From NCBI GenBank assembly GCA_938036875.1, contig CALHVX010000044.1, positions 124,001 to 188,000 of the forward strand: DNA of 64,000 nucleotides. Reading direction: 5' to 3'. Below are positions 1 to 32,338 of this stretch, in pieces. Within the stretch, counting starts at the first letter, position 1. Each line of letters starts with the position of its first letter. The position numbers were made by a program, and so were the translations under genes. The notes beneath the pieces were generated by a model. That model was not told the DNA's origin. It was given only the letters and a program-made list of their open reading frames with translations, and did no database searches. Source of the DNA: an uncultured Pseudomonadales bacterium (lineage in GTDB: Bacteria > Pseudomonadota > Gammaproteobacteria > Pseudomonadales > Azotimanducaceae).

Positions 1-2357
1 ATGGCCCGGTCAAGGATCTCAAGCGAGTCCTGTGCCTCACCAATCGATGCATGAGGCATCGTTGTCGGCATATAGAGGTAAGAGCCTTCATCCAGATTAG
101 GCATAAACTCCTTACCAAAGCCCGGCATTGTCCGGTCAACCGCCTGCCAAGCGTTCGTTTGACGCAGTGCATCGGGGGCGAACTTGAAGACATTGTCGAA
201 ACCCAGCCACGCCGTTAACCCAAGCGCCGTAATCAGCACTGGCACTGTGGTGAATAACGCCTTGTGCTCCAAACACCAACCCAGAAGCCTCGGGTATGCG
301 CGTTGATAGGCACGAAACGCAAGCAACAACCCACCAATCAACACCACGACAAACAGAAGATTGACGAACAGTCCCCTACCCGGTCCCAATGGTAGCCAAG
401 ATTGAGTCAATAGAATGGCAACCAGCCCAGCCACCAACAGGCTAGCTGCAGGCGTTAAGTTGTCGGTGATCCAAACCGGAATCGCAATTCGATCCTTGAG
501 TAGTTGCAGTGCACAGAACGCGATTAGCAACGAACCCGCTAATACGCTGTACCAGACCACGATGGCCAGCCCTGCCGCTAGAAGCCCAACGTAGAACAGG
601 CTCTTTAACCGCTCTGATCGTATCTTGGTGCCAAAAAGTAGTTGCGCAGCGGGCGGGATAATCGCCAACGCAACAATAACGGCGGCCATCAACGCGAACG
701 TCTTAGTAAACGCTAGCGGCGTGAATAGCTTTCCTTCTGCACCCGTCATGGTGAAGACAGGCAGAAAGCTGACCACTGTCGTGGCTACCGAGGTTAATAC
801 CGCGCCGGCCACTTCTCTGGTGGCCTCAAAGACGATCTCCAACGGAGAGTTGTCCGGCTCCGCTTCCTCCATGTGCCTGAGTACGTTTTCACAGATGATG
901 ACCCCCATATCGACCATGGTGCCGATGGCGATCGCAATCCCCGACAAAGCAACGATGTTAGCGGAGACGCCAAAGAGCTTCATCGCGATAAAACACATCA
1001 GCACCGCCACAGGCAGCAGTGCACTGATAAGAATCGAGCTACGAAGGTGCATCACCATGATCAGCACCACAATCATGGTGATGAAAATTTCTTCCGTCAG
1101 CGCATCGTTTAACGTCCCGAGCGTTTCATAAATCAGGTCGGTGCGGTCGTAGAACGGCACAATCGTTACCTGACTCAGGGTCAGTCCCTCGGGCCAGGTG
1201 TCCTGCGCATTGCCACGCAGCCAAGGAATCCAGGCCTCCTGGTTCAGCGTGTTATCAACAAAAGCATCGAAGTCGTTGTCTTGTGCAAATACTCGAAGGG
1301 CACTCTTTGAGGTTGTTCGGTAGTCAACGATTGCCTTTGAAGGCAGCCCTGGAGAAACTTCCGCAATCTTCTCCTTGGCATTGCCGATCGCTGCCAAGGG
1401 ATTGAAGCCATAGCGCGCAACCACCACGCCCCCGACGGCCTCGGTGCCGCCTTTATCAAGTGCCCCTCTTCGCAGCGCCGGTCCCTTAGCCACATTGGCT
1501 ACGTCGCTAATGCGAATCGGTACATTGTCGTTCACACCAACAACAATCTCTTCGATGTCTTCAATGTTTTCGATGAACCCGAGACCTCGAATCACATATT
1601 CCGCACCATTGACTTCAATCGTTCTGGCACCCACGTCGAGATTCGATTGACGAGTCGCTTTGAAGACCTGGTCCAGCGTTATTCCATGCGCCCTCATAGC
1701 GTCTGGGTCCACATCGATCTGGTATTCCTCTTGGTATCCACCAATGGAACCCACTTCGCTGACGCCTTCGGCAGCGAGGAGCGCGTAGCGGACGTACCAA
1801 TCTTGAACACCTCGAAGCTCTTCTAGACCCCAGCCACCGGTAGGATTTCCTTGCGGATCGTGACCTTCCAGCGTGTACCAATAGACTTGCCCCAGTGCGG
1901 TCGCATCCGGACCGAGTGCCGGCTGCACATCAGCCGGAAGCGTGCCTCGAGGCAAGCTGCTAAGCTTCTCCAGCACTCGACTTCTGGACCAGTAAAACTC
2001 GATTCCTTCTTCAAATATTATGTAAACTGTTGAAAATCCAAAGAATGAATAACTTCTGACTGTCTTCACCCCAGGCACGCCCAACAGCGCAACCGTTAGC
2101 GGGTAGGTGATTTGGTCCTCAACGTCTTGAGGCGAGCGGCCCATCCATTCGGTAAAGATGATTTGTTGGTTCTCGCCAATGTCCGGTATGGCATCAACCG
2201 ACACTGGAGAGCGCGGCAAACTGCCTAACTCCCAAGTAAACGGCGCAACCATTGCCCCCCAACCGATAACCCCTGCCAGCAGCAGGAACACGACGAGTTT
2301 TTTCTCAAGACAAAAGCGAATCAGCTTGTCGAGCAGAGAGTAGCTTTCAGTGTTCAT
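1..2357 (-). CDS. cusA: CusA-type copper/silver RND efflux permease (3' end outside window)
   Basis: Inner-membrane proton-driven pump of a CusCBA tripartite exporter for Cu(I)/Ag(I). The frame opens at an ATG at 2357 and stays open to base 1, giving about 785 residues; the C-terminal part lies outside the window. The N-terminus has a cytoplasmic stretch, then the first membrane helix (about residues 20-38). The membrane signature AIGTMVDMGVIICEN (about residues 470-485) is of the CusA class (AIGxMVD) rather than the CzcA class (DFGxxVDG). A PTTMP-type motif sits near the left edge. Its residue number (about 760) is higher than in E. coli CusA, so this is probably one of the longer family members. 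It starts 13 bases after the cusB stop, as last gene of a cus operon. Family assignment is sure; the metal is inferred from signature and context. Confidence 0.93.
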   Translation of the reverse strand, partial: MNTESYSLLDKLIRFCLEKKLVVFLLLAGVIGWGAMVAPFTWELGSLPRSPVSVDAIPDIGENQQIIFTEWMGRSPQDVEDQITYPLTVALLGVPGVKTVRSYSFFGFSTVYIIFEEGIEFYWSRSRVLEKLSSLPRGTLPADVQPALGPDATALGQVYWYTLEGHDPQGNPTGGWGLEELRGVQDWYVRYALLAAEGVSEVGSIGGYQEEYQIDVDPDAMRAHGITLDQVFKATRQSNLDVGARTIEVNGAEYVIRGLGFIENIEDIEEIVVGVNDNVPIRISDVANVAKGPALRRGALDKGGTEAVGGVVVARYGFNPLAAIGNAKEKIAEVSPGLPSKAIVDYRTTSKSALRVFAQDNDFDAFVDNTLNQEAWIPWLRGNAQDTWPEGLTLSQVTIVPFYDRTDLIYETLGTLNDALTEEIFITMIVVLIMVMHLRSSILISALLPVAVLMCFIAMKLFGVSANIVALSGIAIAIGTMVDMGVIICENVLRHMEEAEPDNSPLEIVFEATREVAGAVLTSVATTVVSFLPVFTMTGAEGKLFTPLAFTKTFALMAAVIVALAIIPPAAQLLFGTKIRSERLKSLFYVGLLAAGLAIVVWYSVLAGSLLIAFCALQLLKDRIAIPVWITDNLTPAASLLVAGLVAILLTQSWLPLGPGRGLFVNLLFVVVLIGGLLLAFRAYQRAYPRLLGWCLEHKALFTTVPVLITALGLTAWLGFDNVFKFAPDALRQTNAWQAVDRTMPGFGKEFMPNLDEGSYLYMPTTMPHASIGEAQDSLEILDRA

Positions 2358-2370
2358 ACGCCTACCCCCA

Positions 2371-3954
2371 CTAGTGGTCATGGCCGCCGGTTGAACCGCC
2401 GCCGTCTGGATTCATCATGCTGGGCTTCGCTTGAATCTGAAGCGCACTGTCGATTTTGAAGTTGCCAGAGACGACAACTAAGTCCCCTTCCGACAAACCG
2501 CTCTCAACGATGTAATCTGCCCCCGCTCTAGGACCAAGCACCACGACTCGCCCCGTGTAGGTGGGCCGATCGGCATCCGGTTCTTCCACATACACAACAG
2601 CTCGCTCACCCGTTAAGAGCGCGGCCGTTGCTGGTATCACAATCGGTGCTTCAACGTCCGCCGATGATTCTTCTGCAAAGCCTAAGGATTCGGTCCTCAC
2701 CAGGTCCATGCCGCACACCGGACAGGTGCCGGGCTCATCACTAATGATTTCGGGGTGCATGGGTGATACCCACTTACCCGCTAAGTCTTGATCAACCACC
2801 TTGCCGCCGGTGGCTAAGCGAGCTGAAACATTCGCTCTCACAAACATCTCTGGTTTTAGCCGCTCGTCACTGTTGTCCACGTTGACTCGAACCTTCACGG
2901 TTCGCGTCTTCGGATTCAGGACCGGGTCAATGAACGCAATACGACCATGAAAGGTTTCGCCTGGAAAAGCCTGAGTTGAGAAATCCACCTGTTGGCCGTA
3001 ACGAAGCCACTGCAGATCAGACTCGTATGCATCGAGTTGCACCCAAACAGAACTTAAATCGGCAATTGTGAAAATCCGGCTACCAGTTTCTACGTACATC
3101 CCTTGTTGTGCGTTCTTATGAATCACAACACCACTAGAGGGGGAGTAAATCGTGACGTGCTCTTCTGGTTTACCCGTTTTTTCGATTTGCTTAATCTGGC
3201 CGGCCGTTAATCCCCAAAGACGTAGCTTGTCTCTTGCCGAATCCACCGTGCCTTTGGCAGAGTCGCGCAGAGAGCTGAGCCCACTCTTTGACATTTCTTT
3301 CATGCCGCGAATCGCCTGAAGCAGCTCTTCTTGTGCTGAGTAGAGTTCCGGACTGTAGAGCTTCACCATGTGGTCGCCCTTCTTCACCGATAAACCGGTG
3401 TAGTCAACAAACAGCCCATCGATTCGTCCAGGTATCCAGGCCGTGATGTAGGCCAAATTGGTTTCGTCATAAGCGACTTTGCCAACCAATCGAAGGGAGG
3501 CTGTTGGGAAACGCCGTTCAACAGGCACGGTTTCGATTCGCATCAGCGCTTTCTGAGAAGGACTGACACTAATCTGCCGGGCCTCTTCCATACCGCTCAT
3601 GCCACTGGATTCCTGCTTGGGCACTTTGATGAGATCCATGCCGCAAATGGGGCACTTCCCTGGACCATCTCTTTGGATGTGCGGATGCATGGAACAACTC
3701 CAAACATCTGCCTTGGGTGTTAACGGATTCGACTGAACAATGGGCGACATTTTGGGCTCGCCTACCATCTGACTCATATCGTGGCCCGCTTGCTCATCTA
3801 CCGGCACACTTGCCATCGGCTCGTTCATCGGCATGTTGTGCTCACCGCTGCCGCCTGAGAACAACGACATCACAATCAAGGTTCCAACGATTGCGGCTGC
3901 AGCAATTACCCAGCGGGAGCGCGCGAGTGGCAGAATTTTTTTACTGATGTTCAT
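2371..3954 (-). CDS. cusB: CusB-type periplasmic adaptor with two heavy-metal-binding domains
   Basis: Membrane fusion protein linking the CusA pump to the CusC channel; 527 residues. An N-terminal membrane segment (about residues 12-30) is followed by a Met/His-rich linker (HNMPMNEPM, HDMSQM), typical of copper-handling proteins. Two HMBD-type domains are visible, each with an MHP motif followed by a CPxCGMDL motif: one near residues 85-110 before the barrel-sandwich core, one near 395-420 inserted in the C-terminal half. The C-terminus is His-rich (GGHDH). I chose the ATG at 3954 because AGGAG lies 7 bases upstream; the frame also opens earlier at 3978 without a good ribosome site. The start overlaps the end of cusC, suggesting translational coupling. 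Two HMBD copies are more than the usual zero or one. Confidence 0.93.
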   Translation of the reverse strand: MNISKKILPLARSRWVIAAAAIVGTLIVMSLFSGGSGEHNMPMNEPMASVPVDEQAGHDMSQMVGEPKMSPIVQSNPLTPKADVWSCSMHPHIQRDGPGKCPICGMDLIKVPKQESSGMSGMEEARQISVSPSQKALMRIETVPVERRFPTASLRLVGKVAYDETNLAYITAWIPGRIDGLFVDYTGLSVKKGDHMVKLYSPELYSAQEELLQAIRGMKEMSKSGLSSLRDSAKGTVDSARDKLRLWGLTAGQIKQIEKTGKPEEHVTIYSPSSGVVIHKNAQQGMYVETGSRIFTIADLSSVWVQLDAYESDLQWLRYGQQVDFSTQAFPGETFHGRIAFIDPVLNPKTRTVKVRVNVDNSDERLKPEMFVRANVSARLATGGKVVDQDLAGKWVSPMHPEIISDEPGTCPVCGMDLVRTESLGFAEESSADVEAPIVIPATAALLTGERAVVYVEEPDADRPTYTGRVVVLGPRAGADYIVESGLSEGDLVVVSGNFKIDSALQIQAKPSMMNPDGGGSTGGHDH

Positions 3955-5374
3955 ATGTGCTCTCCTGTTGTTCGCCATTCGTTATTAGCGGTTGGCCTGT
4001 TAATTTTTCGAGCACAGTGCGTGCCTGATTGTGATCCGTAATGGAGCGGGCATACGACAGCTCGAAGTTGAGCAACATGCGCTGTGAATCGATCAAGTCC
4101 GCAAAGGGTGCCGCCCCGGTGCTATAGGAGCGCTGAGTGGCCGCCAGAGACTCGTTTGCTTTGGGTAATAAGGTGTTTTTGTAAAGGTCGATTTGCCGCT
4201 CCGCGTCTCGAAGCTTGAAGAGTGCTGTCACTGTATCGGCATGAAAAGCGTTTAGCTGTTGGTCACGCTTGTATTGCTGCTGCCTTATCGCGGCATCAGC
4301 TTCTTTAACCCCAGCATCATATTTAGAGCGCCAGATTGGCAGCGTAATGCCAACCATCCCAGACAGTGCATTGTCACCACTGCCGTTAACACCCGCATTT
4401 CTCGCCTCACCCGTGGCGATGTAATCAACGCCAACGGTGAAATCAGGCAGGTAGTTTTTCTTAGCTCGTTCTCTAAGTGATCTCGCCGCCGCTATATCAA
4501 AGCCCGTGGCTCGAAGCGCTGGATTATTGAGGGCTACTTTCTCGAGCAGCTCGTCATCACTAAAGCCTACTGCTTCAGAATCGAGAGTCTTTGGCAGCGC
4601 CAAAGACTCTGTCGTTGGGCGATTGAGTGCGCTGTTTAACCGAGCAAAGAGCGGGGCTCTTCGGTCTTTCAGGCTCGCTAATCGATTTTCGATGTTGCCA
4701 AGCTCAACCTGTGCACGAATCACATCCGAATGCGTCGCCCCCCCAGTGCCGTAGCGAGCTCTTGCAACACGTTCCAGATGAAGCACCAGGTCTCGATTGC
4801 CCTGGACGATCTCTATCGACTGGCCTAGGTAGTAAAGCTCATACCAGGCACTAGCCACTTCAGCGATGACAGTGTTTCGAACCGAGGCGACTCGCTCAGC
4901 AGCGGCTCGAGCGGAATCAGTGGCAGCAACCCCTTGAAGACGTAACTTTCCGAACCATGGCAGCGTTTGGGAAATGCCAATCGCGTGCTCTTGCGGACCA
5001 ACACGTGTTTCTACTTCTTCAAAGAAGTAGCGGTAGGTTAACTTCGGATCCGGCAGCGAGGTGACTTGAGGCACACGCTCCAGAGCACCGAGATGTTGCT
5101 GACGGGCGGCTTGTATCTCAGGGTTATGCTCCAGCGCATAGTCAACGAGTGAACGGAGATTCTGAGCGTCTAGCGCATCCCTTGATTGCCTTCTTATCCA
5201 GGTGGTATCAATTCGTTCTTCAGTGACACCAGCTAAACGCTTTGCATTTTGCTGACCCTCGGCTGATCCAGTATCTGAAGCAGGCGCTCTGAAAAGCGAG
5301 TTGGCACAGCCACTGAGTAAAAGGACCGATATAAATGCCAGAAGCGTCTGGCTACGCTTTGTATTAATGATCAT
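3941..5374 (-). CDS. cusC: CusC-type outer membrane efflux channel (lipoprotein)
   Basis: TolC-family outer membrane factor that completes the tripartite CusCBA exporter; 477 residues from the ATG at 5374. It has a lipoprotein signal peptide with the lipobox LSGC, so the mature protein is probably acylated. The body has the two repeated halves of OEP domains, with NPEIQAARQQHLGALERVPQ near the first helix and NPALRATGFDIAAARS in the second. The frame also opens at a TTG at 5407, but the ATG gives the compact lipoprotein signal. The start overlaps the last codons of the cytochrome c gene, and the end overlaps the start of cusB, so the genes are tightly packed in one operon. Substrate follows from the neighbouring CusA. 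Confidence 0.9.
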   Translation of the reverse strand: MIINTKRSQTLLAFISVLLLSGCANSLFRAPASDTGSAEGQQNAKRLAGVTEERIDTTWIRRQSRDALDAQNLRSLVDYALEHNPEIQAARQQHLGALERVPQVTSLPDPKLTYRYFFEEVETRVGPQEHAIGISQTLPWFGKLRLQGVAATDSARAAAERVASVRNTVIAEVASAWYELYYLGQSIEIVQGNRDLVLHLERVARARYGTGGATHSDVIRAQVELGNIENRLASLKDRRAPLFARLNSALNRPTTESLALPKTLDSEAVGFSDDELLEKVALNNPALRATGFDIAAARSLRERAKKNYLPDFTVGVDYIATGEARNAGVNGSGDNALSGMVGITLPIWRSKYDAGVKEADAAIRQQQYKRDQQLNAFHADTVTALFKLRDAERQIDLYKNTLLPKANESLAATQRSYSTGAAPFADLIDSQRMLLNFELSYARSITDHNQARTVLEKLTGQPLITNGEQQESTYEHQ

Positions 5375-5984
5375 GAGATGAATGATCGTGTGCTGGTTTT
5401 TCTTCAACCGTCTCTTCGAGATGCTCGAGCGGTTCTTCTTGGTGACCGCTCACTTCTTGCGGCGCGTGATGGCCAGCACCTGAGGCACTTGCCAGACTCG
5501 CCCCATAGCTGGCCTTATCCAAATTGGGAAGCTCAGTCATGAAGGCAACGACAGGCCACAAGTCAGCATCACCGTGGGTTGCGCCCCAGGCCGGCATGCC
5601 GGTCATCTTGATGCCGTTTTTGGTTATCCAGTAAAGCTCTGCAGGTGTTAGGTGTGCTCCTGACTTCGCCAGGTCAGGCGCTCTTGGATTCAGCCCGAGG
5701 CCCATCGCGTCAGTCTTTTTGCCTGGTCGGTCGTGGCAACTTGCGCACATCGACTCAAAATCGTTGATGCCAGCTTGTTGCATTGCCGGTGTGAGCTCGG
5801 GCACAACAACCTCCCCTGCCCTTCTCTCAACCGAGGCGTGCATTGTGGTTTTCATTAACCACGTTGATGATTCATTGTGTGGGACCAGCGCACTAACGTT
5901 GTAAACGCCCGAATAAACAACCGAGAGTCCAATAGCCAGAGCAACAGCCCCACTAACAAGCAGGGTTCCAAATATCGTTTTCAT
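5364..5984 (-). CDS. Membrane-anchored c-type cytochrome in the cus operon
   Basis: Single-haem class I cytochrome c, 206 residues. A membrane helix at residues about 4-25 anchors or exports it. The haem site CASCH is present, and the downstream MTGMPAWG segment probably supplies the axial methionine. The last 45 residues are acidic and His-rich (HHAPQEV, ending HDHSSHDH) and could bind metal. The ATG at 5984 is preceded by AGGAAA; the longer open frame to 6011 has no such site. It is co-oriented with and overlaps cusC. Cytochromes of this sort recur in cus/cop loci, where a role in periplasmic Cu(I)/Cu(II) redox or electron transfer is possible; that is inference, not shown here. Confidence 0.85.
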   Translation of the reverse strand: MKTIFGTLLVSGAVALAIGLSVVYSGVYNVSALVPHNESSTWLMKTTMHASVERRAGEVVVPELTPAMQQAGINDFESMCASCHDRPGKKTDAMGLGLNPRAPDLAKSGAHLTPAELYWITKNGIKMTGMPAWGATHGDADLWPVVAFMTELPNLDKASYGASLASASGAGHHAPQEVSGHQEEPLEHLEETVEEKPAHDHSSHDH

Positions 5985-19309: not shown

Positions 19310-20530
19310 TTAGTGGTTGTGGATTTCGAAACCGCTTTTGGCGATTTCCGACTGCACAAAAAAGGCGCCTTTGGTCACGACGCGTGCACCGGTTGGCACA
19401 CCTTCAATGACTGCGAGTCCGTTGATCGTGCGAATGACCTCGACTTCTAGTGATTCGAATTTTCCGGGCGCTTCTTCGATAAATACGGCCCAGTCACCAT
19501 CAGGACTGCGCAACACGGCATCCTCCGGCACCGCGATGACATTAGCCAATTCACTGACACCGATACGCGTGTCAACAAACAAGCCTGGATGCAGTTGTTC
19601 GTCCGGGTTGTCGACTTCGATCCGTACGGCCAACGTGCGGGTGATTTCATTGAGCACGTGGTGCGCTTGAATGACCCGTCCTTCGAACCAGGTATCGCCA
19701 ACCCGCACACGCGCGGGACTATCGGTCTTGACACCCCGGGCTTCGACCGGGGTCAGATTCGCTTCGACCCAGATTTTCGATTCGTCACTGATCTCAAATA
19801 ATTCACGGCCAGGCTCAACCAACTCACCTTCAACAAATTCATCCCGAATTACCGTACCGGCTTGTGGGGCCAATAATTGGAACGTGCCATCAGCACTGCC
19901 TTTGTTTCCCGCCAACAGTGCATCGATCTGACCGTCTGTCATCCCGTAGGCACGGACCCGCGAACGCGCTTGTTGTTGTGCCACTTGCGCTTCGGTATAG
20001 CGTCGTCCGGATACCGTGGATTTGCCCAATGATTCGACCCGTCGCCATTCGCGCTCAGCCACTTGCAGCGATCCTTGCGCTTCGGCCATTTCGACACTCG
20101 ATAAGGTGACCAGCAGCGCTCCGCTGGTGACGTGATCACCGAGCCGGACGTGGCGCTGCACAATTTGGGCCGTGATGCGTGGCGTAACCTTGCGGGTCAG
20201 GTAAGCGTTCAGTTTGACCTCTCCGGGAGCGCTAATCTCCGCAGCCAGACTGCGCACTTGCAGCAGTTCAACGACAATACCCGCGACTCGCTGCTGCTCT
20301 GTGCTGATCTCAACAGCGCCGCCTTCTTCCTCTTCTTCGTGATCATCGTGACCCGCTTCTTCGCCGTCATCATGGCCGTCTTCATCGCCGTCCTCGTGGC
20401 CTTCGGCTTCGTGTTTCTGTTCGGTGGTGTCGGCGTGATCATCATGGTCGTCATGATTATCTTGCTGTGCATAGATCGGGGTCGTGAGCATCAAACACAG
20501 ACACAGGGCCCAGAGTTTTAAGGTGTTCAT
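19310..20530 (-). CDS. czcB: CzcB-type periplasmic adaptor with acidic His-rich N-terminus (copy 1)
   Basis: Membrane fusion protein of the first Czc pump, about 406 residues. After a signal peptide (LKLWALCLCLMLTTPIYAQ) comes an extremely His/Asp/Glu-rich stretch of about 55 residues (NHDDHDDHADTTEQKHEAEG and more), a probable zinc/cobalt buffer. The core has the biotinyl-lipoyl hairpin (ISAPGEVKLNAYLTRKVTPR, RLGDHVTSGALLVTLSS) and beta-barrel. I chose ATG 20530, which opens into the signal peptide with GGAG 9 bases upstream; ATG 20581, overlapping the czcC stop as ATGA, is an alternative with an 18-residue longer N-terminus. Confidence 0.88.
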   Translation of the reverse strand: MNTLKLWALCLCLMLTTPIYAQQDNHDDHDDHADTTEQKHEAEGHEDGDEDGHDDGEEAGHDDHEEEEEGGAVEISTEQQRVAGIVVELLQVRSLAAEISAPGEVKLNAYLTRKVTPRITAQIVQRHVRLGDHVTSGALLVTLSSVEMAEAQGSLQVAEREWRRVESLGKSTVSGRRYTEAQVAQQQARSRVRAYGMTDGQIDALLAGNKGSADGTFQLLAPQAGTVIRDEFVEGELVEPGRELFEISDESKIWVEANLTPVEARGVKTDSPARVRVGDTWFEGRVIQAHHVLNEITRTLAVRIEVDNPDEQLHPGLFVDTRIGVSELANVIAVPEDAVLRSPDGDWAVFIEEAPGKFESLEVEVIRTINGLAVIEGVPTGARVVTKGAFFVQSEIAKSGFEIHNH

Positions 20531-20577
20531 CGAGGATTTCTCCGTAAGGTGGACGTGTCTGTTCGCGTTATGTGTGT

Positions 20578-21840
20578 TCATCGATAGGATCCTTTGCCGA
20601 GCCACGCATCCACCTGACCGGAAGCCCAGAGCCACTCAAACCACGCACGCCACAATGCTTTGCGTAGATCGAGCGCGCTTTCTTGTACGTCAATGGTTTG
20701 GCGCAGCTGCACCAGGTAATCGGTGGTACTGAATTCACCGGATTGCCAGAGTTTTTGCAGCTGTTCGGTTTGATTGGTCAGACTAGTCTGACCCGTGAGT
20801 TCCCAGTCGCCCCAGGCGCCGCGGGATAGCTCGTACCGTTCAGCGGCGCTGATGAGCCGTGCGTGGGCCCGTTGCATCACATCGTCGGCAACTTGCTGTG
20901 CTTGAGCGCTCTCTGCCAGTGCGGCGTTCACCTCATATTTGAACCGGTTGCGGATGAACAGCGGCACCGACACATTCAGTCCAACCAAATTTTCGCCATC
21001 CGCTCGACCTCCCGCTAGACTGATGGTCGGGTCAGGTCGGCGTTCGCGGCGGCGAAGCTCAACCAAGGCATCAGCCGATTCGACTTGACGCCGCACGGCC
21101 AATACTTCAGGTAGCGCGAGCACTAAGGCTTGAGGATCCGACGCCGTTTGCGGTAACACCGGCATGGTCGCCGGTAATGTCGGCCATTGAGTTACTGGTA
21201 AGCGGGGGGTGAGATTGCGAACGGCCTGCCGCGCCTCAGCTAGTCCGGCGCCGGCCGTTGCTTTTTTAATGCGCGCATCGGTGGACGCCAATTTGGCTAG
21301 CGCAAACTCCACCTGATTCAAATCACCCGCATCGAAGCGACGTTGGGCCAAGTCGGCAAAGTCTTGCATTAGTTTTCGGCGTGATTCGGCGAGTGCATCT
21401 CGCTCAGCGCCGGTTTGGTGTTGGGCCAAACCGTCTAAGAGTTCGACGATGACTGCCCAGCGGGCGGCCACGTACTCGGCCTCCACGACTAAGCGATCCG
21501 ATTCGGCCACCGCCGTACGGGCTTTGCGTTTACCACCCCAATCAAGCGTTTGGCTAATGCCGAGTGTGCGCGTATCGATATCCGCGTTCTCCGCATCGAG
21601 ACTGAGTTGGGGGTTGTACAAGGGGCGCGATGCGGCATCTCTAAAGGAGCCACTGGCATCCAGCGCAGCGCGCGCCGCTTGCACGCGAGGATTGGTTTCG
21701 ACCACGGTTTGAACGAAACGAATCAGTTCAGGATCGGCACGTGTCGCGACAATCGCGCTTGGGTCAGCGGCTTGCACCGCCCATGGAATAAGTATTAGGC
21801 CGCCTAAGAATAGGACGAACCCACAATGTGGTTTTTGCAT
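20578..21840 (-). CDS. czcC: CzcC-type outer membrane efflux channel (copy 1)
   Basis: TolC-family outer membrane factor of the first Czc pump, 420 residues. Signal peptide to about residue 24 (ending AVQAAD). Helical repeats with NPRVQAARAALDASGSFRDA in the first half. No lipobox Cys, unlike CusC here. The stop overlaps a possible czcB start in ATGA fashion, so translation is likely coupled. Shares fold but little close identity with the second czcC at 28381..29676. Confidence 0.88.
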   Translation of the reverse strand: MQKPHCGFVLFLGGLILIPWAVQAADPSAIVATRADPELIRFVQTVVETNPRVQAARAALDASGSFRDAASRPLYNPQLSLDAENADIDTRTLGISQTLDWGGKRKARTAVAESDRLVVEAEYVAARWAVIVELLDGLAQHQTGAERDALAESRRKLMQDFADLAQRRFDAGDLNQVEFALAKLASTDARIKKATAGAGLAEARQAVRNLTPRLPVTQWPTLPATMPVLPQTASDPQALVLALPEVLAVRRQVESADALVELRRRERRPDPTISLAGGRADGENLVGLNVSVPLFIRNRFKYEVNAALAESAQAQQVADDVMQRAHARLISAAERYELSRGAWGDWELTGQTSLTNQTEQLQKLWQSGEFSTTDYLVQLRQTIDVQESALDLRKALWRAWFEWLWASGQVDAWLGKGSYR

Positions 21841-21918
21841 AAATCATCTTCCGGATGCAGGACATCGGCGTGCGTACCAAACAACATTCGGCGCACGGTT
21901 TTAGGAAAGGAAAACGAT

Positions 21919-22242
21919 TTAGGCGGTAGGGGGAGGCGTTGGGGGTGCTTGTGCGAAATTGCGTACGTGCGGTGATCGCGCGATGCGACTATCGCTATTC
22001 ATTGGTGCCGTGTTCATCGATACGATCTGTGTCGTCATGCTGGCTGTGTGGCCATGGCAGCAACGCTCACAATGATCGCCTTCGGAATCCGCGGTCTGCG
22101 CTTTTTCCGTTGCATCGAGATTACTGACTTGATGCACAGCACTATCACCGTGCGGATGACCTTGATTAACAAGGTCAGCAGCGCCGTCCACACTCATGAA
22201 GAGCATGGAAATCATGATAGCTATGCACCAATAATTTTTCAT
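21919..22242 (-). CDS. Small periplasmic HCxxCCHG/PPTPPP protein (copy 1)
   Basis: 107 residues, secreted (signal peptide to about residue 21, SMLFMSVDGA). The middle has a dense metal-type cluster HCERCCHGH; the end is proline-rich (APPTPPPTA). The same plan (HCNHCCHG, then TPPTPPP) is in the 29737..30084 gene, at the same place between CDF and czcC in the second module. This conserved position and motif argue that both are real and part of the Czc systems, perhaps as periplasmic metal carriers. I know no name for the family. Confidence 0.75.
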   Translation of the reverse strand: MKNYWCIAIMISMLFMSVDGAADLVNQGHPHGDSAVHQVSNLDATEKAQTADSEGDHCERCCHGHTASMTTQIVSMNTAPMNSDSRIARSPHVRNFAQAPPTPPPTA

Positions 22243-22249
22243 CGTGCGA

Positions 22250-22921
22250 CTATCCTACCTCGGTTGTCGCGTTGAGGGGTGGATTTAGTTCACATTCATC
22301 GTCTGTTGCGCGCAGCTCCGCTCTAGCTAGACGCACGACGCGCAGTGCGGCGTCGATGTTCAGTGCTGCGATAATCGCGGCTACCGCGAGATCGGGCCAA
22401 CGCGATCCGCTGGCGAAGACACCCGCTGCGGCGAACATGACAGCCACATTGCCAATCGCATCGTTGCGACTGCACAACCAGATGGATTGGCGATTGCTGT
22501 CACCGTCCCGAAAGCGATACAAGATTCCAGCAACGGCAACGTTCACGAGTAGTGCCAATAATGCGATGACACTCATAGTCGCCGGGTCGGGCGCGCTGTC
22601 GGTAAACACCCGATGCACAGCGCTGCCAACTACCCACACGCCGAACAATGCCATGCTGGCCCCTTTGAACAGCGAAGCCTTCGCACGAACACTCAGCGCC
22701 ATGCCGACGACAAACAAACTGATGGCGTAGTTTGCCGAGTCGCCGAAAAAGTCGAGCGCATCGGCCTGCAACGAAAGGGAATCCCCCAATTGGCTGGCCA
22801 CGATTTCGACAAGAAACATCGTAAAATTTGCGATCAACGCAATCCACAGTACGCGCCGGAACACTGGATCCGACCCTCTTACACCGACGTTCTCGACAGA
22901 GCAATCACTGCATCCTGGCAT
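22250..22921 (-). CDS. Short CDF-type cation transporter (copy 1)
   Basis: 223 residues with six membrane helices and no C-terminal cytoplasmic domain. It starts MPGCSDCS, adding a CxxC to the cytoplasmic tail. The helix 2 site is DALDFFGDSANY (DxxxD) and helix 5 has SRNDAIGNVAVM (NDxxxN), so the first His of CzcD is replaced. Short CDF proteins of this kind accompany czc operons and probably export Zn/Cd/Co. The start overlaps the arsR stop. A close paralogue of identical length lies at 30090..30761. Confidence 0.85.
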   Translation of the reverse strand: MPGCSDCSVENVGVRGSDPVFRRVLWIALIANFTMFLVEIVASQLGDSLSLQADALDFFGDSANYAISLFVVGMALSVRAKASLFKGASMALFGVWVVGSAVHRVFTDSAPDPATMSVIALLALLVNVAVAGILYRFRDGDSNRQSIWLCSRNDAIGNVAVMFAAAGVFASGSRWPDLAVAAIIAALNIDAALRVVRLARAELRATDDECELNPPLNATTEVG

Positions 22922-23259
22922 CAGTCGCCCTCCTCAATGTCGAGCGGCTCACCGATGTGAACTACCATGTCATCAATCACACAGCGAATATGGTCATCCA
23001 ACGCTGAATAGAAAATCTGTTTGCCACGTCGCTCACTGCGCAATACTCGCGCCGCTTTTAACAAGCGTAGATGGTGGCTTACTAAAGACGAGGATAGGCC
23101 CAGGTGTTCGGCGATGTCCCCAACCTTAATAGGGTTTCCCAGGCAAGTAAGAATAATACGCAATCGAGTGGGATCACCCATGAGTCGGAAGAGGTCGGCT
23201 AACTGAACAATGGTGTCTTCAGATCCGATGCTGACCACACTGCTTGGTTTGGCTTTCAT
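22921..23259 (-). CDS. ArsR/SmtB-family metal-sensing repressor (copy 1)
   Basis: 112-residue winged-helix repressor. The recognition helix is SLVSHHLRLLKAARVLRSER. The zinc-type alpha-5 site is complete: D-x-H in DDHIRC, then 11 residues on His, then GE (VHIGE), the D-x-H-x10-H-x2-E pattern of SmtB. No alpha-3 CxC site. So it probably senses Zn/Co/Cd and leaves DNA on binding. AGGAGG stands 7 bases before the ATG, and the start overlaps the stop of the methyltransferase gene (ATGA). Confidence 0.9.
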   Translation of the reverse strand: MKAKPSSVVSIGSEDTIVQLADLFRLMGDPTRLRIILTCLGNPIKVGDIAEHLGLSSSLVSHHLRLLKAARVLRSERRGKQIFYSALDDHIRCVIDDMVVHIGEPLDIEEGD

Positions 23260-23891
23260 TCAACCCTCCTACAATTTGGTGTTTGATTCCGGCTTCTACC
23301 CAGGGCAGGCAAAAATCGACCTACGCTAGCAGTGTAGCGTTCGTATTGCTCACCATGCATCGCCAATAGATAGGGCTCCTCCACAAAGCGAACCTGCAGT
23401 TGTACTCCTATCAACACCAGCACCATAGCCAACACCGTCCAAACGTTTGGAATGACTAGCAAATAACCGAATGTAGACATGCCCATGAAGCTAAAGATCG
23501 GGTTGCGTACCCACTGATAGATTCCCTGGGTAACTAACGAGGTACGCTCATTTTTATCGACGCCAATGCGCCAAGAATCGCCCATGGCCATTTGTGCGGC
23601 GAGCGAGCCAACAATACCAACAACGACAAACAGTGCGCCAACTTGATGGATCGGCGCTTTATCAAAGAGCAGTTCTCCAGAACGCCACTGCAGTATTGAG
23701 ATCATTGGTGCTATGAGGATGAGACCCAGCCCGCTGCCTACGCTGACACCTGCAAACCATTCGAGGGAGCCGACGCGACCCCGTATTCCGTTGAACCCTG
23801 TCGAACCTGTTCGTTTCCACTGCACGATGGAGCGAGCAACGAAAAGTAGCAGCGCCCATAGAGCAATAAGTAATAGTGCCAGTTCAGGCAT
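23256..23891 (-). CDS. ICMT-family membrane methyltransferase, first gene of Czc module 1
   Basis: 211 residues with five to six membrane helices. Motifs of the isoprenylcysteine carboxyl methyltransferase/PEMT superfamily: GIYQWVRNPIFSFM and VRFVEEPYL, then EQYERYTASVGRFLP, which bind S-adenosylmethionine. Bacterial members are often found in metal-resistance loci, substrate unknown. It leads the operon methyltransferase-arsR-CDF-small protein-czcC-czcB-czcA, with an ArsR operator about 80 bases upstream. A two-domain relative is at 31259..32338. Confidence 0.83.
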   Translation of the reverse strand: MPELALLLIALWALLLFVARSIVQWKRTGSTGFNGIRGRVGSLEWFAGVSVGSGLGLILIAPMISILQWRSGELLFDKAPIHQVGALFVVVGIVGSLAAQMAMGDSWRIGVDKNERTSLVTQGIYQWVRNPIFSFMGMSTFGYLLVIPNVWTVLAMVLVLIGVQLQVRFVEEPYLLAMHGEQYERYTASVGRFLPALGRSRNQTPNCRRVE

Positions 23892-23970
23892 GGACTAGCT
23901 CGCTGGGTTGCATGTTCTGCCCTTCCTCTACTGACACAGGTTTTTGGATAGACGTGTTATTCATGATTCT

Positions 23971-23994
23971 ACATTTGAACAGGTATTCATATGT
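23971..23994. promoter_or_regulatory. ArsR/SmtB-type operator upstream of Czc module 1
   Basis: Left arm ACATTTGAACA, 2-base centre, right arm TATTCATATGT: an 11-2-11 imperfect repeat (9 of 11 positions pair) with the TGAAnnnnnnTTCA core of SmtB-type operators. It matches the perfect copy at 31207-31230. Confidence 0.65.
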
Positions 23995-24060
23995 TGGTAG
24001 ATTGCAGCACTTAAGTCAAGCGGAGGTTGTAAGTGATGAGTACATTAAGTTTCGCTGCTT

Positions 24061-24345
24061 TTGACGTTAAGCAAGGAAGGAGAGCCGTCTGACGAGCTAA
24101 AGAACATATTGAGAGTGAATCGAGAAAGAGAACTCTCGGAACAGGCTGCAAAGCTCACGGAGCTCCTAGGCATTGAGACCAAGGATGCGACAATGCTCGC
24201 ATTGCGTATCAACTCTACCGCCGACTATGCCGCGTTGATCTTCTCAATGGGCGCAGACAAAAAGAAAATTGATCAACTGTCTTCTAACCAGATTCGATTT
24301 CGCATTGCGCAAGGACTAAGTGACGGCTCGACCGCTTTCTCGACA
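24061..24345 (+). other. Possible truncated gene converging on czcA
   Basis: A plus-strand frame of about 95 codons reads like a real helical protein (LKNILRVNRERELSEQAAKL, TKDATMLALRINSTADYAAL) before running into sequence antisense to the czcA 3' end. It lacks a good start (TTG only; an ATG frame at 24036 ends early). It may be the remnant of a gene cut when the Czc module inserted. No family recognised. Confidence 0.3.
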
Positions 24346-24351
24346 AAACTC

Positions 24352-28380
<4,029 letters not shown>

Positions 28381-28384
<4 letters not shown>

Positions 28385-29676
28385 TTGAGAGTTTCCTGCA
28401 ATACTTGACGAACATCGCTACCAGGTTGCAGCGATATACCAGTCAGTTGTTCGATGATCACCGCAGCCTGCAAAGCGTTGGTCGCAGTGGCGATGTGTGT
28501 TTGTTTCGCGTCAATTAGTGCGCGTTGCGCAGCGATCAGCTCGAGATAGCTGTAACGACCAGCCTCGAAGGCTAATTGCGTCTCTCCCAATGCCTTGTTT
28601 AAGTCTGGGATGGCATCGTTAGCCAGTGCGTTCACCGCTCGGATACTCTGGGCACGCGTTGCATAGGCGTCGTAAAGCTGAGCGTAGAGCTGGTTTAATG
28701 CTTGCTCGCGCCGAACCCCAACCACTGCTCGTTCCGCGTGAACGGCCGCTATCTCGCCACGGTTCCTGCGCGCTGCATTCAGGGGAAATTCAAGAGATCC
28801 GACCAAGGCATTGTCGTTCAGGCCTTCCAAGCGCCGGAAACCTAAGGACCATCTGATGTCCAGTTGATTCTTACTCTCAGCGAGGTGAATTTGGGCATCT
28901 CTGAGACGCTCTTGGCTTGCAAAGGTTCGAACGACGGGACTTGCCGCGACGAGTTCCCAGAGCGATTTAAACTTTCTTTCTTCGCCAAAATTGAACAGAT
29001 CGCCCTGTACGTCGTACACCGTTTGTTCTCGGCTACCCCAATACGTACTGAGTCCAACGATCGCAATATCAAGCTGGGCCGCAATCTTCTCGGCAGATAT
29101 CTTAGTTTGGGATTCGAGCGCTTTTGCACGGAGTAGCTCAGCGTCTGGCGCTACACCAGCATCGACGCGTTCTTGAACCGTAGCGGTCGTACGATTCGCC
29201 AGCACCAAGGCTTGTTGCGCCAGTGAGAGTTGCGCCTTTAATGCCAGTGCACTTATATACTGCGACGTCATTGCACCGAGGACATCCAGTGCCTTTGCTT
29301 GTAGCTCTATCCTCAACATCCCAGATCTGGAGTCCATCACTGCAGTACGCGCGGAGCGCTTTGAACCCAGTTCTATGACGGATGAGAGCGACACGGTAAT
29401 TTCGGCCTCGTCAATCCCCTGTGCTTCGTCAGCACCGGCGAAATTTTCGACCTCAATGCCAAGGGCGAGCGCGGGCCGTAAAGCCGCTGTCTTGCGACGT
29501 GCCTGAATCGCATCATCTTGTAACTTGTAGACGTTAAGGAACGGATTCTGAGCCAACGTCCTTTTAGTCGCGTCTGCGAGTGTTAGTTCCTGCGCTGCGG
29601 CTACATTGCCACTCAACAGCGACGCACATAAGCACACGCTTAGCCAAAGCGTGGCCAACTTTCTATTGGATCGCAC
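28381..29676 (-). CDS. czcC: CzcC-type outer membrane efflux channel (copy 2)
   Basis: 431 residues, signal peptide ending AAAQE at about residue 29. TolC-type helical repeats: ADATKRTLAQNPFLNVYKLQ in the first half, SPVVRTFASQERLRDAQIHL in the second. Outer membrane duct of the second Czc pump. ATGA overlap with czcB downstream. A gap of 60 bases separates it from the small HCNHCCHG gene upstream. Confidence 0.88.
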
Positions 29677-29736
29677 AACCTTTCTCCATTTGCTGGGAGC
29701 AAATTACGCACGAGGGTTACTCGCGCAATATCGGTC

Positions 29737-30084
29737 TTAGGAGTTGCGTTGTGCGTCGGGTGGGGGCGTTGGGGGTGTGAGCACCAGAACTTGCAGCTGA
29801 TCAGCGTACGGGGTCGGTTCTCCTTTATAAGGGTGTGCAGACAACGTCGTCAGATTTGAATCTGCGGTACTGAAACATTGCCCATGGCAACAGTGGTTGC
29901 AGTGCTCGCCGTCGAGTGCGGCATCGGACACCTTTCCATCGTGTGCATCCAGTGCATGCCCAAATTCTTGTTGATGACTTGTTGCATCGCTGTGAGGTGT
30001 GCCATCCATCACAACATCCGCCACTCCCTCTATGCCCACAAAGAGGAAGGATAGTATGGCGAGTTTGCAGATGAATGAACGCAT
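29737..30084 (-). CDS. Small periplasmic HCxxCCHG/PPTPPP protein (copy 2)
   Basis: 115 residues, signal peptide to about residue 21 (LFVGIEGVA). It has HCNHCCHGQC in the middle and LTPPTPPPD near the end, the same order as the 107-residue protein at 21919..22242; the segments between have diverged. The conserved cluster could bind Zn, Cd or Cu in the periplasm, and a Pro-rich tail could contact the pump. These roles are inference. Confidence 0.75.
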   Translation of the reverse strand: MRSFICKLAILSFLFVGIEGVADVVMDGTPHSDATSHQQEFGHALDAHDGKVSDAALDGEHCNHCCHGQCFSTADSNLTTLSAHPYKGEPTPYADQLQVLVLTPPTPPPDAQRNS

Positions 30085-30089
30085 ACTAG

Positions 30090-30761
30090 TTAGCTTAGCC
30101 CAGTTTGGGTGGGGACACCTGGGCGCAGTTCACACTCGTCTTTTGCCAGCCGCAGTTCACCTCGTGCCAATCGCATCACGCGAAGTGCAGCGTGAAGATT
30201 GAGTCCGGCGATCAAGGCGGCAACGATCAGGTCTGGCCAGCGCGAACTACTCGCAAAGACACCGGCTGCCGCCAACATGACGGCTACGTTGCCTATCGCA
30301 TCATTGCGACTACACAACCAAATGGATTGTCGGTTGCTGTCGCCATTCCGATAGGTATACAACAGGGCCGCCACACCGACGTTTACCACCAACGCAACCA
30401 ATGCCACACTGCCCATCGTGATCGGTTCGGGCGAGCTGCCAACCATCGCTCGGTAGATAGCGCTGCCAATGACCCAGATACCAAAAAGCGCCATCGTTGC
30501 GCTCTTAAATAGCGATGCCCGGGCTCTAACGGTTAGCGCCATCCCCACCACAAAAAGACTGATGGCGTAATTCGCCGAATCGCCGAAGAAATCGAGCGCG
30601 TCCGCTTGCAGAGACATGGAATCACTGAGTTGGCTGGCGATGACTTCAACAATGAACATCGCGAAATTTGCCACCAGCGCAATCCACAGCACCATGCGGA
30701 AGCGAGGGTTCTCTAGGTCCTCACCCGCCTGGTCGGAAGCGCAATCAGTGCAGCCAGGCAT
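30090..30761 (-). CDS. Short CDF-type cation transporter (copy 2)
   Basis: 223 residues starting MPGCTDCA, six helices, with DALDFFGDSANYAISLFVVG and SRNDAIGNVAVMLAAAGVFA shared almost letter for letter with copy 1 at 22250..22921. I chose ATG 30761 because it gives the same length as copy 1 and overlaps the arsR stop (TAATG); the frame opens further to 30824 but that part is antisense-like extension within arsR. Probably exports Zn/Cd/Co to the periplasm for removal by CzcCBA. Confidence 0.87.
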   Translation of the reverse strand: MPGCTDCASDQAGEDLENPRFRMVLWIALVANFAMFIVEVIASQLSDSMSLQADALDFFGDSANYAISLFVVGMALTVRARASLFKSATMALFGIWVIGSAIYRAMVGSSPEPITMGSVALVALVVNVGVAALLYTYRNGDSNRQSIWLCSRNDAIGNVAVMLAAAGVFASSSRWPDLIVAALIAGLNLHAALRVMRLARGELRLAKDECELRPGVPTQTGLS

Positions 30762-31093
30762 TAGTCGGATTCCTCGATATCTAAGGGCTCTCCAACGTGC
30801 GCCATCATGTCGGTGATCACGCAATCAATGTGCGCATCGCACGCTGAATAGAACATCTGTTTGCCTCGGCGTTCAGCCTTCAAGACGCGAGCGGCTCGCA
30901 GTAATCGCAAGTGGTGGCTTACCAATGACTGAGAAAGATCGAGTTGAGCTGCGATGTCACCGACGCTAATAGGGTCTCCCAAACAGCTCACGATGATTCG
31001 CAACCGACTCGCATCTCCCATCAACCGGAACAAGTCAGCGAGTTGAACTACATCTTCTTCTGAGCCAAATTTTTCGACCTTTGGTGTTTTCAT
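30761..31093 (-). CDS. ArsR/SmtB-family metal-sensing repressor (copy 2)
   Basis: 110 residues from the ATG at 31093. Recognition helix SLVSHHLRLLRAARVLKAER; alpha-5 metal site D-x-H (CDAHID) followed 11 residues later by His and then GE (AHVGE), as in copy 1. Very similar to the repressor at 22921..23259 along the whole length. No ribosome site before the ATG, and an operator starts 7 bases upstream, so the gene may be autoregulated at its own translation start region. Confidence 0.9.
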   Translation of the reverse strand: MKTPKVEKFGSEEDVVQLADLFRLMGDASRLRIIVSCLGDPISVGDIAAQLDLSQSLVSHHLRLLRAARVLKAERRGKQMFYSACDAHIDCVITDMMAHVGEPLDIEESD

Positions 31094-31099
31094 TCGGCT

Positions 31100-31123
31100 A
31101 CATCTGAACATATATTCACATGT
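31100..31123. promoter_or_regulatory. ArsR/SmtB-type operator before arsR copy 2
   Basis: ACATCTGAACA, 2-base centre, TATTCACATGT: 11-2-11 repeat pairing at 9 of 11 positions, TGAAnnnnnnTTCA core. Placed immediately upstream of arsR copy 2, consistent with autorepression of the second Czc module. Confidence 0.65.
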
Positions 31124-31258: not shown

Positions 31259-32338
31259 ATGACTAAAATGTACCAACTGCTCTTCGGAGCCGCCCTACTG
31301 GCGGCAATTACAGTATTCGTTTTATCGATCCTCCAAGTAGTTCGTAAGGGGTTCGAGTTTTGGCCACCACCGCGAGCTTCGTCGTGGCAAAGCCGTACGT
31401 TTCGTACGCTGTTTCGAGTTTTTTTTGTTTCGTTAATAGGCGTTTCGATTCTCGATTTCAATACCAACCAGCCGACTTGGCGATACCTCATCGGCACGCC
31501 AATCGTTCTCCTAGGATTTGGCCTCGCTTTGCGTTGGACAAATTTTCTTGGTTGGGGGAACGCGTTCGGTAGTAGCGACGGACTGAAAATCGATGGAATA
31601 TATCGATTCAGCAGAAACCCAATTTACGTCATTACGATCGTCGGGATGATTGGCTGGGCAATGCTGGTTGGTTCATGGATGGTCACCACACTACTCGTTC
31701 TATGGGCTTGCTTGTACGTCGCGGCACCCTTTCTGGAAGAGCCCTGGATGAGGAAGCACTACGGTGCAGTTTTTGACACTTATGCGTTAGAAGTTCCGAG
31801 ATACGGTTCGATACGGTCGATCGCGACGTATGTAATGACGAAGCTCGAACTCAAGGTCCCACCTCTAGCCATCGTCTTGATCTGCGCAGGTGTGATGTAT
31901 TTATGCGCAATTATCGTCGCACACGAATTTGCTATACCAACGGGAATCCGAGTAGCACTCGCGGTCGTCGCGGCCACCATTGCAGCTGTAATACTCACTG
32001 CTGCTCTCATGACTTTTCGAAGACACCAGACAACGATGAACCCTTTAAATCCGAACAACACTTCAAATCTGGTCACGAGCGGCATCTACGCATACAGTCG
32101 AAATCCGATGTATCTATCGATGTTTATCATTTTGTTGGGTTGGGGGTTCTTCCTGGGACAATTAAGCGCGGCTTTCGGTCTTGCTCTATACGTTGTGGCC
32201 ATCACGCGCCTCCAGATCCAGCCGGAAGAACGAATACTGAAACGGAAATTCGGGAGCGCTTACACCAACTTTCTAAACTCGAGTTACCGCTGGCTTGGGT
32301 TCCGCCAATCGACTCCTAGTGACGCTGGGTCGTCCTAG
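31259..32338 (+). CDS. Tandem two-domain ICMT-like membrane methyltransferase
   Basis: 359 residues formed by two ICMT/PEMT-like units. Unit 1 (about 1-195) has YRFSRNPIYVITI and LEEPWMRKHYGAVFDTY; unit 2 (about 200-345) has YAYSRNPMYLSMF and PEERILKRKFGSAYTNF. Each has the RNPxY and E-E(R) motifs for S-adenosylmethionine, so both may be active. About eight or more membrane helices. The usual single-unit proteins are about 150-220 residues, as at 23256..23891. It is divergent from arsR copy 2 with a perfect operator in front, so metal-induced expression is likely. Substrate unknown. Confidence 0.8.
   Translation: MTKMYQLLFGAALLAAITVFVLSILQVVRKGFEFWPPPRASSWQSRTFRTLFRVFFVSLIGVSILDFNTNQPTWRYLIGTPIVLLGFGLALRWTNFLGWGNAFGSSDGLKIDGIYRFSRNPIYVITIVGMIGWAMLVGSWMVTTLLVLWACLYVAAPFLEEPWMRKHYGAVFDTYALEVPRYGSIRSIATYVMTKLELKVPPLAIVLICAGVMYLCAIIVAHEFAIPTGIRVALAVVAATIAAVILTAALMTFRRHQTTMNPLNPNNTSNLVTSGIYAYSRNPMYLSMFIILLGWGFFLGQLSAAFGLALYVVAITRLQIQPEERILKRKFGSAYTNFLNSSYRWLGFRQSTPSDAGSS

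Follow-up and report, generated by a model that had tools for sequence, protein, structure and literature searches.

Small exported leaders before czcC: candidate nascent-chain metal sensors for zinc/cobalt/cadmium-type efflux pumps

We consider it probable that two small genes in the window (the whole stretch of 64,000 nt analyzed here), each preceding czcC, encode cis-acting nascent-chain metal sensors in which a pause at a C-terminal proline motif frees the czcC start for translation; taken whole, this is the best explanation of the data. The leaders have a fixed spacing between a conserved Cys/His motif and a conserved tail, their ends form RNA arms that covary with the start region of czcC, and they stand before czcC. 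Metal binding, pausing, the direction of control, and the identity of the metal are inferred. The new elements are a variant with HCxxCCHG and PPTPPP, its occurrence ahead of Zn/Co/Cd-type pumps, and an anti-Shine-Dalgarno arm that covaries with its partner; a literature search that left subscription journals mostly uncovered returned no title or abstract on such control of czc pumps.

Two small exported proteins in paralogous czc blocks

Two small open reading frames (ORFs) were found at the coordinates given in the preliminary description, each between a CDF gene and czcC; both are on the minus strand. Leader 1 (21919..22242, −; 107 aa) consists of a signal peptide, HCERCCHG (residues 57–64; 22051..22074, −), a free linker, and PPTPPP (residues 100–105; 21928..21945, −), followed by TA and the stop codon. 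Leader 2 (29737..30084, −; 115 aa) likewise has a signal peptide, HCNHCCHG (residues 61–68; 29881..29904, −), a free linker, and PPTPPP (residues 104–109; 29758..29775, −), here followed by DAQRNS and the stop codon. The Cys/His motifs are putative metal-ligand motifs, and PPTPPP is a putative pause motif; in leader 1, the last Pro-Pro starts 42 residues past the last Cys. The signal peptide, HCxxCCHG, and PPTPPP are indeed common to the two proteins, but the claim that nothing else is shared did not hold, as the likeness runs along the whole length (34% identity, E 7e-15; local score 166, the best of 2000 shuffles reaching 62) and includes a GxADxVxxGxPHxDxxxHQ stretch after the signal peptide. 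Among the 239 window ORFs of at least 60 aa, 12 are no longer than 150 aa and have PP among their last 15 residues; of those 12, only leaders 1 and 2 also carry a hydrophobic N-terminus and Cx2-3C. Export was judged from the hydrophobic N-terminus and a confident N-terminal helix, that is, a predicted signal peptide. This helix was the one confident element in the AlphaFold2 model of the leader (mean pLDDT 60.6, pTM 0.25), and no confident fold was obtained for the mature part, where 10-residue blocks averaged pLDDT 44–66 and the last seven residues 77.

Both blocks read arsR-CDF-leader-czcC-czcB-czcA on the minus strand and are paralogous along their whole length, and leaders 1 and 2 are therefore not independent cases. 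Block 1 is headed by an ArsR-type regulator (22921..23259, −) and a short CDF gene upstream of the leader (22250..22921, −), and continues after the leader with czcC1 (TolC/OEP; 20578..21840, −), the first gene controlled in our model, the periplasmic adaptor gene czcB1 (19310..20635, −, given from the first in-frame start listed, the real start being probably further in), and the HME-RND pump gene czcA1 (TIGR00914; 16106..19297, −). In block 2, the ArsR-type regulator at the head (30761..31111, −) is 70% identical to that of block 1, and the short CDF gene that precedes leader 2 (30090..30824, −) has an uncertain start and overlaps arsR2; downstream lie czcC2 (OEP, nearest NCBIfam model IhpA, below cut-off; 28381..29676, −), the adaptor gene czcB2 (27476..28384, −), and the HME-RND pump gene czcA2 (TIGR00914; 24352..27495, −). 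The gap from leader to czcC is 78 nt in block 1 and 60 nt in block 2.

Several neighboring features were recorded alongside. Both CDF proteins of the window are short, at 223 aa (22250-22921) and 244 aa (30090-30824), and score under the TIGR01297 cut-off (75.9 and 63.3 vs 82.35 bits); similar short CDFs were found again beside the leaders of other loci. Next to arsR in both blocks are ORFs (23256-23891 and 31259-32338) which we take to be integral-membrane methyltransferase-like, and relatives of ORF 23256-23891 again lie beside arsR in L041 and L049. A third, divergent RND block (CusCBA/CzcCBA-like; window 3-5407) is without such a leader, and the ORF before its OEP gene has a His-rich, cytochrome-c-like end, named by eye.

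Leaders before czcC at other loci

Searching with leader 2 gave matches in 17/369 genomes of the class (E up to 0.01, false ones included), and a species-genome scan gave 15 loci out of 143 candidate stretches, with titles of Gammaproteobacteria or other Proteobacteria; tblastn of plasmids with leader 2 gave no match. The working set comprised 25 members, leaders 1 and 2 of the window among them. Leader 2 query matches L010, L013, L016, L018, L019, and L021 were dropped as false from their peptides (L027, L030, and L035 being wider contexts of three of them), L043 and L052 were left out because they duplicate L022 and L025, and L055 was left out for a frameshift; five more profile matches (L056–L060) stand outside the 25. 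All 25 members are followed by a czcC-like OEP gene 60–102 nt downstream, and the upstream gene is variable (CDF with or without arsR, or other). With a profile built on the 25 members, matches were obtained in 57/369 genomes of the class, bearing out the earlier proposal of an exported Cys/His protein, with putative metal ligands, that is linked to czc genes and present at other czc loci. When 27 of the 63 profile matches were examined, czcC was identified by BLAST at 25, L174 had an OEP-like ORF by eye, and L175 leaves the contig.

The opposite outcome, that no other czc loci carry such a protein, did not occur. In a survey that started from czcC itself, 60 loci were examined, including both window loci and five more from the 25. 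An exported (predicted) leader ending in Pro-Pro was found at 49 of these czcC loci and none, by the same rules, at 11; with the Cys motif required, 34 loci have a leader with the Cys/His motif and 26 fail. The tails form a gradient with PPTPPP at one end, RPP at the other, and PPxPPP and PPDRPP between them. We also observed a second type of leader before czcC, which is His-rich and mostly without the Cys motif, and has a hydrophobic stretch close to the C-terminus and an end like PPLRAPP (L104, L106, L108, L109, L111, L114, L115, L117, L120, L122–L125, and L127). Leaders of this type may be sensors of like design that are anchored in the membrane.

A fixed ruler from Cys/His motif to proline tail

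The preliminary description had noted strong keeping of the named parts against loose surroundings, and the 25 members (103–117 aa) show the same pattern, with motif and tail nearly fixed and other parts loose. In 25/25 members, the final Pro-Pro comes 41–44 residues (sd 0.79) after the last motif Cys, across a linker whose sequence is free, whereas the N-terminal part up to the motif spans 56–72 residues (sd 3.8). In 22/25 members, the last PP is followed by exactly two residues. Six close pairs of members had 0 non-synonymous changes in the last eight codons (about 17 sites each), with synonymous sites changed at up to 5 of 7.3; in the same pairs the Cys motif showed one amino-acid change (L024/L048) and the linker changed freely. 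The Cys/His motif and the Pro tail are thus held at the protein level. By the same measure, the motif-to-tail distance is 43–50 residues in 12 DUF2946 proteins, and 45 aa have been reported between the two motifs of both CutF (PMC9973294) and CruR (PMC9426467).

Covarying RNA pairing at the leader-czcC junction

In the minimum-energy fold of block 1, a 13-bp helix (z −2.39) joins the 5′ (anti-Shine-Dalgarno) arm UAAAUCGUUUUCC (21909..21921, −), which begins with the stop codon of leader 1, to the 3′ arm GGAAGAUGAUUUA (21840..21852, −), covering the Shine-Dalgarno region and the first base of the czcC1 start codon. The block 2 fold (z −3.47) has a corresponding helix between the 5′ arm GCACAACGCAACUCC (29740..29754, −), within the last codons of leader 2, and the 3′ arm GGAGAAAGGUUGUGC (29673..29687, −), which includes the Shine-Dalgarno region and the GUG start of czcC2. 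No Rfam families were found in 21700-30900.

Pairing between the stop region and czcC was stronger for cognate than for non-cognate partners, at −13.3 vs −7.7 kcal/mol in 12 representatives (0/20,000 permutations as good) and −13.3 (own) vs −8.9 (foreign) kcal/mol in all 25 members (0/20,000 permutations); these permutations compare own with foreign partners among members that are related, and the counts are therefore not independent. Repeating the comparison on 42 other czcC loci gave −11.7 (own) vs −9.1 (foreign) kcal/mol (0/20,000 permutations), whereas 63 control junctions between ordinary genes with gaps of 40–110 nt gave no cognate pairing signal (−9.16 vs −9.05, p 0.37). When the 5′ window was slid along the RNA, a strong signal appeared only around the stop codon, with peak z −6.6 for 12 loci and −7.5 for 27 loci. 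The czcC start was chosen by hand, over the automatic pick, for L028, L045, L050, and CzcI.

The position of the arm differs in leader 2 and L042, where the tail is four residues longer. In these two, the arm begins at −18 from the stop codon vs the usual −5 or so, which is about 12 nt further upstream and keeps the 6-nt distance from the last Pro codon seen in most others. This arrangement hints that the reference point of the arm is the pause site and not the stop codon, and is a hint only because the two represent one lineage.

Across the 25 loci, the folding model predicted a mean unpaired probability of 0.29 for the czcC ribosome-binding site (RBS) in the free RNA vs 0.46 with the spacer shuffled. 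This value rose to 0.50 when a ribosome was placed over the Pro motif, and a footprint 30 nt upstream left it at 0.29. Occlusion is weak in members L023, L026, L024/L048, L046, and L042, as well as in Shewanella and Alteromonas relatives and in CzcI.

Relation to known leaders and arrest peptides

The nearest counterpart by design is CutF of Rhodobacter capsulatus, whose Cys motif, Pro tail, signal peptide, and downstream stem-loop have all been reported as needed for copper-dependent CutO production (PMC9973294). The exported CutF protein was reported to be degraded at once and undetectable, and CutF-like proteins were sorted into 29 sequence clusters, with OEP genes as the commonest downstream neighbour (PMC9973294). 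Both window leaders agree with the published CutF-like rules in having a length <150 aa, an N-terminal signal peptide (predicted from the hydrophobic N-terminus and helix), a same-strand gene within 1000 nt downstream, and a hairpin masking the Shine-Dalgarno of that gene in predicted folds, and Pro-Pro falls within the last 15 residues in 25/25 members. The Cys metal motif and a motif-to-tail distance of about 45 aa are further points in common with CutF-like proteins (PMC9973294). As the leaders agree with all the rules that are visible in sequence, they belong to a known kind by design. They differ from CutF in carrying HCxxCCHG and PPTPPP and in their target, which is a Zn/Co/Cd-type efflux operon and not a copper oxidase (PMC9973294).

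CruR of Bordetella pertussis (DUF2946/PF11162) is similarly a small exported upstream ORF with CxxC, a C-terminal Pro motif, and fixed spacing, but it has an RAPP tail and acts through Rho termination over a 162-nt gap, with copper turning its target off (PMC9426467). Compared with DUF2946 motifs, the leaders have CxxC, a spacing of 42 vs 43–50, and PPTPPP where RAPP would be. Leader 1 scored below the PF11162 cut-off (13 vs 23.7 bits) and leader 2 had no match among those listed; 12/25 members matched at E up to 1 (best 0.0028), and hhalign gave a probability of 27%. Profile comparisons with DUF2946, CzcI, SilD, and a Methylophaga leader gave probabilities of 16–36%, mostly over the signal peptide only. 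The CopL family (NF033807), of exported metal-binding regulatory proteins, resembles the leaders in their proposed role and matched 2/25 members (best E 5.3e-7), with no match to leader 1 or 2 at E up to 1. SecM, VemP, and MifM have in common with the proposed leaders a C-terminal pause and a hairpin masking the next Shine-Dalgarno, but, as described in PMC9973294, what they sense is protein export; their arrest sequences are different and they lack a metal motif. For leaders 1 and 2, no Pfam or NCBIfam family scored above cut-off; weak matches to NODP, DUF4605, and BKRF4 were taken as chance.

A role in trans, in which a CzcI-like periplasmic protein senses metal through the Cys/His motif and dampens CzcCBA when metal is scarce, is unlikely. 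CzcI of Cupriavidus metallidurans pMOL30 is also a small exported protein with a signal peptide and Cys/His motif, its gene lies immediately before czcC and matches the leaders in position and size, and its product has been reported to quench CzcCBA (PMC10127602). However, only the signal peptide aligned with the leaders in a test of sequence similarity, CzcI has no C-terminal PP, and its RBS occlusion is not below that of shuffles. The absence of a confident fold in the mature leader likewise counts against such a role, which leaves the 41–44 spacing and the RNA pairing unexplained. A CzcI-like role in trans and a leader role could nonetheless coexist.

Proposed mechanism and alternatives

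As a nascent-chain sensor, the small gene would act in cis as a leader (upstream ORF) that governs how czcC and the pump genes after it are translated. Its signal peptide would direct export of the nascent leader, and, with the ribosome at PPTPPP, the Cys/His motif would lie about 42 residues ahead, past the tunnel and near the Sec channel. Metal bound to the motif, probably Zn, Co, or Cd, would lengthen the pause at the proline motif, and the paused ribosome would mask the RNA arm at the leader end, keeping it from pairing with the czcC Shine-Dalgarno. In the presence of metal, the Shine-Dalgarno would thus be free and czcC translated.

We propose this direction, in which metal prolongs the pause and turns the pump on, because CutF does so; the direction of CruR is disfavoured, as an efflux pump would then shut off as metal rises. 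Zn, Co, or Cd is suggested by the pump type and by the CDF and ArsR neighbors, though Cu(I) might also fit the Cys-rich site. Two published results speak against the model: in the prototype CutF, translation was not arrested by the Pro tail on its own (PMC9973294), and CruR control was unaltered by loss of EF-P (PMC9426467).

Plain translational coupling, in which ribosomes on the leader open the czcC RBS and the leader has no metal role, would fit the modeled RNA, where a ribosome terminating at the leader stop codon opens the helix much as a paused one does (0.52 vs 0.50). The RNA data therefore show coupling to leader translation and not the pause. A signal peptide, a conserved Cys/His motif, a Pro tail held at the protein level, and a fixed distance would not be needed for coupling of this kind, and we give it a slim chance.

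The preliminary description had suggested a metal carrier with a pump-docking tail; that a periplasmic protein passes metal to the pump and docks via PPTPPP is highly improbable, since, for all that the signal peptide, the Cys/His motif, and the adjoining pump genes throughout are in keeping with it, no folded carrier domain is predicted, a profile search found no similar solved protein at E up to 1, and a docking tail explains neither the lack of a confident mature fold, nor the fixed ruler with its free linker, nor the RNA pairing that hides the czcC RBS, whereas a CutF-type sensor explains all three.

Implications for czc-type pumps

How nascent chains sense metal was worked out in the case of copper (PMC9973294 and PMC9426467). 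The covariation found here is direct sequence evidence that such sensing may govern the main zinc/cobalt/cadmium efflux pumps, for which credit usually goes to transcriptional regulators. A possible role also emerges for the many “hypothetical proteins” encoded ahead of czcC, and the ruler combined with the arm at the stop codon gives a rule for finding more leaders. We see an even chance that nascent-chain translational gating is general for czc-type (Zn/Co/Cd) RND pumps in the class. Under such general gating, many unrelated-looking leaders would share a ruler of ~42 residues from the metal ligands to the Pro pause site, along with an anti-Shine-Dalgarno arm ~6 nt past the last Pro codon that would have been repeatedly rewritten by compensatory change; CzcI-type proteins, now seen as pump quenchers, may be derived members.

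Three further loci yielded minor observations. In the Dasania sp. locus set aside above (L055:5929-6222), the start of the leader is nearly identical to that of L048, a frameshift precedes the Cys motif, and the downstream pump genes are intact; the frameshift is either a sequencing error or a real loss. On a Rhodopseudomonas plasmid (L096:4667-5032), a P-II family regulator gene lies between the adaptor and the pump of a metal RND operon. SilD of pMOL30 (L099:12024-12419) is named as CutF-like in PMC9973294, and pairing between the silD stop region and the Shine-Dalgarno of the next gene reached −27.5 kcal/mol, the strongest seen.
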